A program made the translations under genes and the position numbers. This document shows, in pieces, positions 38,392-40,161 of a stretch of 64,000 bases of DNA. The notes under the pieces were generated by a model that was not told the origin of the DNA, searched no databases, and saw only the letters and a list, made by a program, of their open reading frames with translations. The stretch spans positions 248,001 to 312,000 of the forward strand of contig RECC01000036.1 in the NCBI GenBank assembly GCA_007692455.1, written 5' to 3'. This DNA is from Alkalibacterium sp. (GTDB lineage: Bacteria > Bacillota > Bacilli > Lactobacillales > Carnobacteriaceae_A). Positions within the stretch are counted from its first letter, which is position 1. Every line of letters starts with the position of its first letter.

Positions 38392-38997
38392 ATGAACAGC
38401 GATAGAATAAATTATGCTGAAATTACAATTAGTGCCGTATCTCCTTCTCAATATCCAGATGATGGTTTACCAGAAATCGTATTGGCCGGTCGATCTAATG
38501 TAGGGAAATCATCTTTTATTAATACGATGGTTAACCGAAAGAAGCTAGCACGTACGTCAGGTAAACCCGGTAAAACTAGAACATTAAATTTTTTCAATAT
38601 TGAACATGAATTGTTTTTTGTAGACGTACCTGGATATGGGTATGCGAAGGTATCTAATGCTGAACAGGATAAATGGGGCAATATGATGAGTGACTATTTT
38701 GCTTCGCGAGAAGAACTTGTCCTTGGTATTCTACTTGTAGATTTTAGACACGAACCTTCCGAACAGGACTGTCAGATGTACGATTTTTTCAAATACTATG
38801 ATGTACCCGTAATCGTTGTTGCAACTAAAGCAGATAAGATTAAATCATCGCAGTACAATAAGCATTTAAGTATTATTAAAAAGACGCTGGATTTAGACCC
38901 GGAAGATAAACTGATGTTATTTTCTTCCTTTAACAGAGAAGGAAGGACGGAAATCTGGGAAGAAATTTTAGCGTATACAGGGAATGAGACGACATGA
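38392..38997 (+). CDS. engB: Ribosome biogenesis GTPase EngB (YsxC/YihA)
   Basis: [50 protein letters not shown]. Confidence 0.96.
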
Positions 38998-40133
38998 AAC
39001 TGTTAATGTATGGAGTGAACAGGGAGACCGTCTCTTCAGAAGATATACACAAGTACAGTCTAAATCAGACTGCCTATAGAATGCATTTGAATGATATTTA
39101 CCAGTTTGACGGTGTCAGTGAAGTTGTTCTGCTCGTTACGGAAAACCGCAATGAGTATTATTTATATGTTGACGAAGCGTCATTTAAGCACGGTGATTTA
39201 TTGCGATATTTATCTGACTATACAGAGAAGCCCCTTGAAGAAATTATCTTGGAAACATACAGTAAATTTAATGATGATGTCGTTAAACACTTGTTAAATG
39301 TTTCCAGTTATGTAGAGGTGTCAGAAGCTCATACGTTTGAATCAATTGATATTATTGACCACGCACTGATGAAATCAATTGAAGAAAAAACAGTAGGAAC
39401 GATATTGTACACTTTATTTAAAAAATCAGTAGAATTTTCTCTGTCACTCTGCGAAAAAGAAGAGATCAAACCCTTACTCCAAGGTGATGTATCGAAAGCA
39501 GTACGCTCAATAAAAGAGACAATTAAAGAAACTGATTCCAGTCACTATCTTATTATCGGCAATGATAAATTTACCAATCAGGTGATGAAATATTTTGTCG
39601 GTTCCCAGTACAGCTCCATGGCTGTAGTTAACCGGGGACATGATTCTCAAAATACAGTAAATGAACTGAGAAGATGGCTACGTTTGACCAAACAGTCCTC
39701 GTGGATTAAAAATATTCATGAAATCAGTTCATCTCAGCTTTTATACCGTCTGGCTAAATCAGATGTCGTCATTATAGGACCTGATGAAAAGAATTCATGG
39801 TTTACAGAAGAACTGTTCGATGAAATGAGATGCCTGAGACCCAGTCCTAAAAAGCAGCTGGTCTACGATTTCAGCTTAACGCAGGATGAGACGGTGCTGC
39901 AGAAATTTGATTTGATTCATTACAAACATATAAGTGACGAACCGAAACGTCTCTATACTGATGAGAAAATCGAAGAAGCAAAGACAACTTACGATGAAAT
40001 GGTGTCTCTACAGACAGAGCAATATATCAAGCAGTTCAATAAACTCCAGGAATGTCTGCCAATCAGGATAGAGAATGAATTTGTATCTGAGGGAAATATT
40101 AGTTTTACTAAAAAAATTAGTTATAAAGTTTAA
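38994..40133 (+). CDS. HemA (glutamyl-tRNA reductase)-like protein lacking catalytic Cys; probable pseudoenzyme
   Basis: [19 protein letters not shown] aligns to Hem[46 protein letters not shown] aligns to [28 protein letters not shown]; located downstream of engB as in Bacillus ysxC-hemA region; overlaps engB by 4 nt. Confidence 0.78.
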
Positions 40134-40161
40134 GAGTGTCTCGTATGAGACACTCTTTTTA
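40133..40161 (+). terminator. Terminator after hemA-like gene
   Basis: aagagtgtctc-gtat-gagacactcttttt. Confidence 0.9.

Follow-up and report, generated by a model that had tools for sequence, protein, structure and literature searches.

The engB-HemA* unit and its retention

The window, by which we mean the entire 64,000-nucleotide stretch of Alkalibacterium sp. DNA analysed here (from a genome of 2.05 Mb, 89.5% complete), carries on its forward strand a two-gene unit. EngB (YsxC) is an essential GTPase involved in assembly of the 50S ribosomal subunit, and its gene engB occupies positions 38392-38997. Directly downstream lies an open reading frame (38994-40133) that starts with ATG and encodes 379 amino acids with profile and profile-profile homology to glutamyl-tRNA reductase (GluTR, HemA), the first heme-making enzyme, whose substrate is a tRNA. 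We refer to this putative GluTR-derived pseudoenzyme gene and its product as HemA*. The engB stop codon and the HemA* start codon overlap by 4 nt in ATGA (38994-38997); this overlap and the intact frame are both seen as described in the initial annotation. A probable intrinsic terminator (40134-40160, forward strand) consisting of a 9-bp stem and a T run ends the unit. The terminator had been called strong, which agrees with a folding computation assigning -15 kcal/mol and a z-score of -5.5 to the hairpin at 40134-40155 with the T run after it, but the hairpin is absent from the list returned by a consensus terminator scan. The next gene after the hairpin is obgE. We infer that engB and HemA* share one transcript and are translationally coupled.

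The window's family, termed f1 and including Alkalibacterium, retains this arrangement. HemA* is carried by 25 of 27 f1 genomes, and its frame is intact in all 25, which span eight genus codes. It lies between engB and obgE in every f1 genome with an assembled locus (25/25, the window's own counted), an engB orthologue is located upstream of it in f1 genomes having both genes and the 4-nt overlap is found at 20 of 24 measurable loci. The apparent absence of HemA* from the two remaining genomes (G010 and G013) is explained by assembly gaps, with engB unmatched as well and 144 and 201 nt between obgE and the end of the contig. The gene order clpX-engB-HemA*-obgE is kept across the f1 loci read. 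In G008 and G005, clpX and engB are separated by two inserted opposite-strand genes (L140 3174-5531 and L141 2917-5452).

Homology to GluTR, lost catalytic features and constraint

Sequence comparisons identify HemA* as a true GluTR/HemA homologue. The protein matches Pfam GlutR_N (1.3e-12, 48.2 bits) above the gathering score (cut-off 27), together with a weak match to Pfam Shikimate_DH. The NCBIfam hemA model TIGR01035 matches at 9.7e-17 and 61 bits, below the equivalog cut-off of 209.55 bits. Profile-profile alignment (hhalign) of HemA* with canonical HemA yields a probability of 100 and an E-value of 6.7e-49 over 349 columns, and a profile built from 13 f1 members matches the solved GluTRs 4n7r (1.1e-13) and 1gpj (5.6e-13). 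The initial annotation had aligned the product with GluTR along its length by eye; the profile searches recover this similarity, and the segments picked by eye coincide with the corresponding GluTR parts in the computed alignment. AlphaFold2 runs limited to two input sequences resulted in poor models with pLDDT values of 45 for full-length HemA* and 41 for residues 1-160.

GluTR consists of an N-terminal domain with the catalytic cysteine, a second domain supplying NADPH and a third domain responsible for dimerization (PMC6399207). We compared motifs between 25 f1 proteins and 37 HemAs that are either canonical or from f2, a second family of the same order; 27 of the first 345 positions are invariant across the 37. 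The catalytic Cys is present in all 37 of these proteins but in only one of the 25 f1 proteins. In the window its site is occupied by Glu50, encoded by GAA at 39141-39143 (forward strand). As 24 of 25 f1 members are without the Cys, its loss does not represent a sequencing error. The annotated replacement of Cys by Glu stands for the window itself but not as a fixed swap, position 50 being mostly acidic (Asp in 11 and Glu in 10 proteins) rather than invariant, with Ser in two, Asn in one and Cys in one. The protein with Cys50 (G017, L022 1501-2514, SECQRLE) has none of the remaining motifs, which could reflect late loss elsewhere or a reversion.

Further GluTR features are largely gone from f1. 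T49 is retained in 11 and N51 in eight of 25 proteins. The active-site helix region at residues 101-150 (39294-39443, forward strand) is degenerated by alignment and entropy, with GLDSxxxGExQILGQVK lost: S109 is retained in four proteins, E114 in two, Q116 and Q120 in one each and K122 in none, and G113 is also among the pocket residues mostly replaced. Where GluTR has the NADPH-binding GAGKMG, the window reads GNDKFT (residues 189-194, 39558-39575, forward strand), as noted initially; G191, the second Gly of this motif, is found in two of 25 f1 proteins, and P296 and R297 in none. At 335-385 aa, f1 proteins are shorter than canonical and f2 HemAs (412-478 aa), and the C-terminal dimerization domain is missing, the alignment stopping just past the start of the spinal helix. 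E43, E54, D60 and H99 are kept in 25/25 and R52 in 22/25. Judged by its sequence, HemA* is not a functional GluTR, and the protein is likely to be enzymatically dead and to function by binding.

HemA* evolves under purifying selection. While dS is saturated for most f1 pairs, the least saturated pairs, G014/G020 (dS 0.64) and G025/G026 (dS 0.85), give Nei-Gojobori dN/dS values of 0.114 and 0.107, respectively, and the same pairs give 0.04-0.05 for codons 1-100. Synonymous sites diverge in these first codons too, which argues for constraint on the protein. A dN/dS of about 0.1, not near 1, and family-wide retention bear out the earlier view that the gene is maintained and not decaying. Entropy analysis delineates a near-invariant block at residues 54-100 (39153-39293, forward strand), with a mean of 0.85 bits in f1 versus 2.16 elsewhere and none of 344 circular shifts as low. 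In canonical HemA the block shows no such advantage over region 101-150 (1.13 versus 1.04), and the latter rises to 2.30 in f1. Conservation of the block combined with variability of the active-site helix region indicates that constraint has shifted from chemistry to the N-terminal subdomain. HemA* qualifies as a pseudoenzyme at the level of sequence, being an enzyme homologue that lacks catalytic residues and evolves under purifying selection. HemA* evolves far faster than EngB, for example with 47% versus 80% identity to G005. Four Alkalibacterium HemA* proteins (G000, G002, G004 and G005) have in common the C-terminal tail K[KR]ISYKV (40113-40130 in the window; L007, L008 and L009); the preceding residues are not shared and the tail resembles a short linear motif.

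Heme pathway genes and the origin of HemA*

Searches for hemB, hemL, hemC and cydA, each covering 24-27 f1 genomes and among them that of the window, detected none of these genes there, and the same searches gave matches in control genomes. The only hemL-like match in f1, in G018, is weak and falls under the family cut-off. The initial annotation had seen no other heme gene in the window; hemB, hemL, hemC and cydA were not found anywhere in the window's genome either (89.5% complete). The survey of engB-downstream genes and of hemB and hemL that it had suggested returns Cys loss in 24 of 25 f1 members and neither hemB nor hemL in the f1 genomes searched.

Proteins of the f1 form were confined to f1 in scans sampling 396 genomes from the order and 399 from the class. 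In these scans f2 proteins score 233-247 bits and all others at most ~95 bits. When the collection was searched with HemA* as a single protein, L031 (Alkalibacterium subtropicum) was the one true relative to come up; the other match, L032, is weak and probably arose by chance. In a phylogenetic tree a branch with an SH-aLRT support of 100 separates the f1 proteins from the rest, and their nearest neighbors are f2 HemAs. The inner order within f1, which contains several long branches, is unsure, but the single group holds, and the tree indicates a single origin of HemA*.

Cys50 is intact in each of the 12 f2 genomes examined, as are the QIL[SG]QVK helix and the G-x-GKM or GEM sequence. All 12 have hemL, which by position directly follows hemA, but hemB is found in none and hemC is missing from 11. 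The f2 hemA-hemL pair (L126, L127, L128, L131, L132 and L145; for example L127 6065-8742) should yield 5-aminolevulinate, with no known route onward. For Carnobacterium divergens and C. maltaromaticum, a published table of genes includes hemA but none of hemB to hemE (PMC6857183), and Carnobacterium presumably belongs to f2. Proteins of f1 and f2 share K2, Y6, G40, FxHG[DE]xLxY and I85, which the other HemAs of the order do not have. A gap of 85-144 nt separates engB and hemA in 11 measurable f2 loci versus the 4-nt overlap in 20 of 24 f1 loci, and on this basis tight engB coupling is associated with the inferred loss of catalysis. Adjacency of engB and hemA is also found in the Listeria-like G039 and is therefore ancestral. 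Apparently, f2 represents an evolutionary intermediate. Because f2 retains hemA-hemL without hemB and shares residues with f1, the path looks like a full operon reduced to hemA-hemL only, followed by loss of hemL, the Cys and the dimerization domain.

Several observations concern other HemAs. Canonical HemA is present in G029, G261 and G281 (f4, nearly identical) and in others belonging to groups mostly without hemA, with hemB found in G029; this looks like sporadic retention or gain. HemA matches at G262:C8:20383, G329:C9:602412 and G333:C1:1914756 lie within frames of 748-764 aa, possibly fused to another enzyme. G116 contains a siroheme/nitrite-reductase cluster (L170 8621-16182) in a genome with hemA-hemL and without PF00490 hemB. 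In this cluster hemC was assigned by Pfam, and hemD, SUMT-like, SirC-like, CbiX-like, nitrite reductase and NirC-like genes were named from sequence reading. Either a step is missing in G116 or a substitute for hemB exists.

A probable repurposed GluTR and alternative explanations

HemA* is probably a repurposed, non-catalytic GluTR pseudoenzyme retained throughout f1 for a binding or regulatory role. The initial annotation had put forward such a repurposed pseudoenzyme, and motif loss, family-wide retention and a dN/dS of about 0.1 support it. An ancestor with engB-hemA(-hemL), in which the middle of the heme pathway was already gone, would have lost hemL. HemA would then have abandoned catalysis through loss of the nucleophilic Cys, the glutamate/tRNA pocket, the NADPH site and the dimerization domain, with the N-terminal subdomain of the catalytic domain staying as a strongly constrained non-catalytic module. 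Its gene would have become translationally coupled to engB, so that HemA* would be made in step with EngB and may, as a binding protein, play an accessory or regulatory part in an EngB/50S-assembly or tRNA-Glu context, via conserved residues around E54, D60, E61, H66, G67, D68 and H99.

We favor the EngB or tRNA-Glu context because no contextual feature other than the engB overlap combines novelty with conservation, and because the substrate of GluTR is a tRNA; the assignment to EngB, the ribosome or tRNA is nonetheless tentative and any named partner a guess. Since engB-hemA adjacency is ancestral, little can be concluded from the neighborhood by itself about a link to EngB. This link gains some support, while staying conjectural, from the 4-nt overlap, which f1 has and f2 does not. 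Not all of the conservation in block 54-100 can be due to the new role, since FxHG[DE]xLxY already occurs in the catalytically intact f2 HemA. HemA* is acidic with a mean pI of 5.3, but normal HemA is likewise acidic, and an argument against RNA binding based on charge was dropped for this reason. The complete scenario, in which a heme enzyme gave up catalysis and became a factor for ribosome assembly or tRNA sensing, specific to this lineage and co-translated with EngB in bacteria that no longer make heme, must be considered rather doubtful.

The best rival to the pseudoenzyme reading is a new enzyme in which the GluTR pocket (acidic residue 50, Arg52, Glu54 and His99) was rebuilt for other chemistry, which we judge unlikely. 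Asp or Glu at position 50 in 21 of 25 proteins, Arg52 in 22 and Glu54 and His99 in all would suit it, and the invariant polar residues D60, E61 and H66 suggest a site. However, T49, N51, S109, G113, E114, Q116, Q120 and K122 are mostly replaced, the lost Rossmann glycines leave no known cofactor site and position 50 is non-acidic in the four proteins outside the 21. The same retained Arg52, Glu54 and His99, plus Cys50 in G017, could be taken as signs of a working GluTR relying on another nucleophile or partner. This is hardly credible given that the f1 genomes searched offer no hemL or hemB for its product, that the NADPH motif and dimerization domain are gone and that G017 has also lost the remaining motifs.

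Largely poor conservation of residues 101-355 and a length varying between 335 and 385 aa are compatible with a decaying hemA relic kept through slow loss or linkage to engB, but a dN/dS of about 0.1, an intact frame in 25/25 across eight genus codes and the near-invariant block make this quite improbable. Alternatively, selection on the frame might concern engB, through RNA or translation (overlap, mRNA stability), and not the encoded protein; the close 4-nt overlap and the strong hairpin at the 3' end would fit this. There is very little probability in this, as synonymous sites diverge freely and amino acids do not, the first 100 codons included, and as coupling through an overlap downstream of engB would act on HemA* and not on engB. 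Heme can be bound by GluTR proteins, an example being S. aureus GtrR, cited in PMC10991733, and HemA* might sense heme, ALA or another tetrapyrrole taken up from outside. The f1 genomes searched have no cydA, hemB or hemC, His99 and His66 are the only invariant residues among His and Cys and no Cys is conserved, all of which renders a sensor a far-fetched candidate.

The pseudoenzyme reading would complete a natural series from the full hem operon through hemA-hemL only to a dead HemA, in which the pathway and then the chemistry are lost and strong selection persists. Because the HemA* gene is easy to delete and tag, one can test directly which selective force preserves a dead GluTR and whether a second, hidden role of GluTR exists elsewhere among bacteria. 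Automatic annotation may call HemA* a glutamyl-tRNA reductase, wrongly crediting f1 bacteria with heme synthesis. In the open-access literature searched we found no description of an earlier GluTR-derived pseudoenzyme family, though an earlier account may exist elsewhere, nor any description of HemA* in work on GluTR in Carnobacteriaceae, Alkalibacterium or lactic acid bacteria.

Compared with GluTR (HemA/GtrR), as represented by the Listeria-like G039 locus and PDB entries 1gpj and 4n7r, HemA* is homologous over residues 1-350, occupies the same place after engB and has in common E43, R52 (22/25 f1 proteins), E54, D60 and H99. It differs in having lost Cys50, the QILGQVK region, GxGxMG and the dimerization domain, and in belonging to a genome without the heme pathway. 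Its closest sequence relatives are the f2 HemAs (453-478 aa, encoded as engB-hemA-hemL), which share K2, Y6, G40, E-Y-Y, FxHG[DE]xLxY, I85 and N93 with HemA* but differ from it in possessing Cys50, QIL[SG]QVK, GxGKM, the dimerization domain and hemL, and in the 85-144 nt gap to engB. Pseudoenzymes in general have lost catalytic residues and kept the fold for binding or regulation, and HemA* resembles them in being under purifying selection with its catalytic residues gone.
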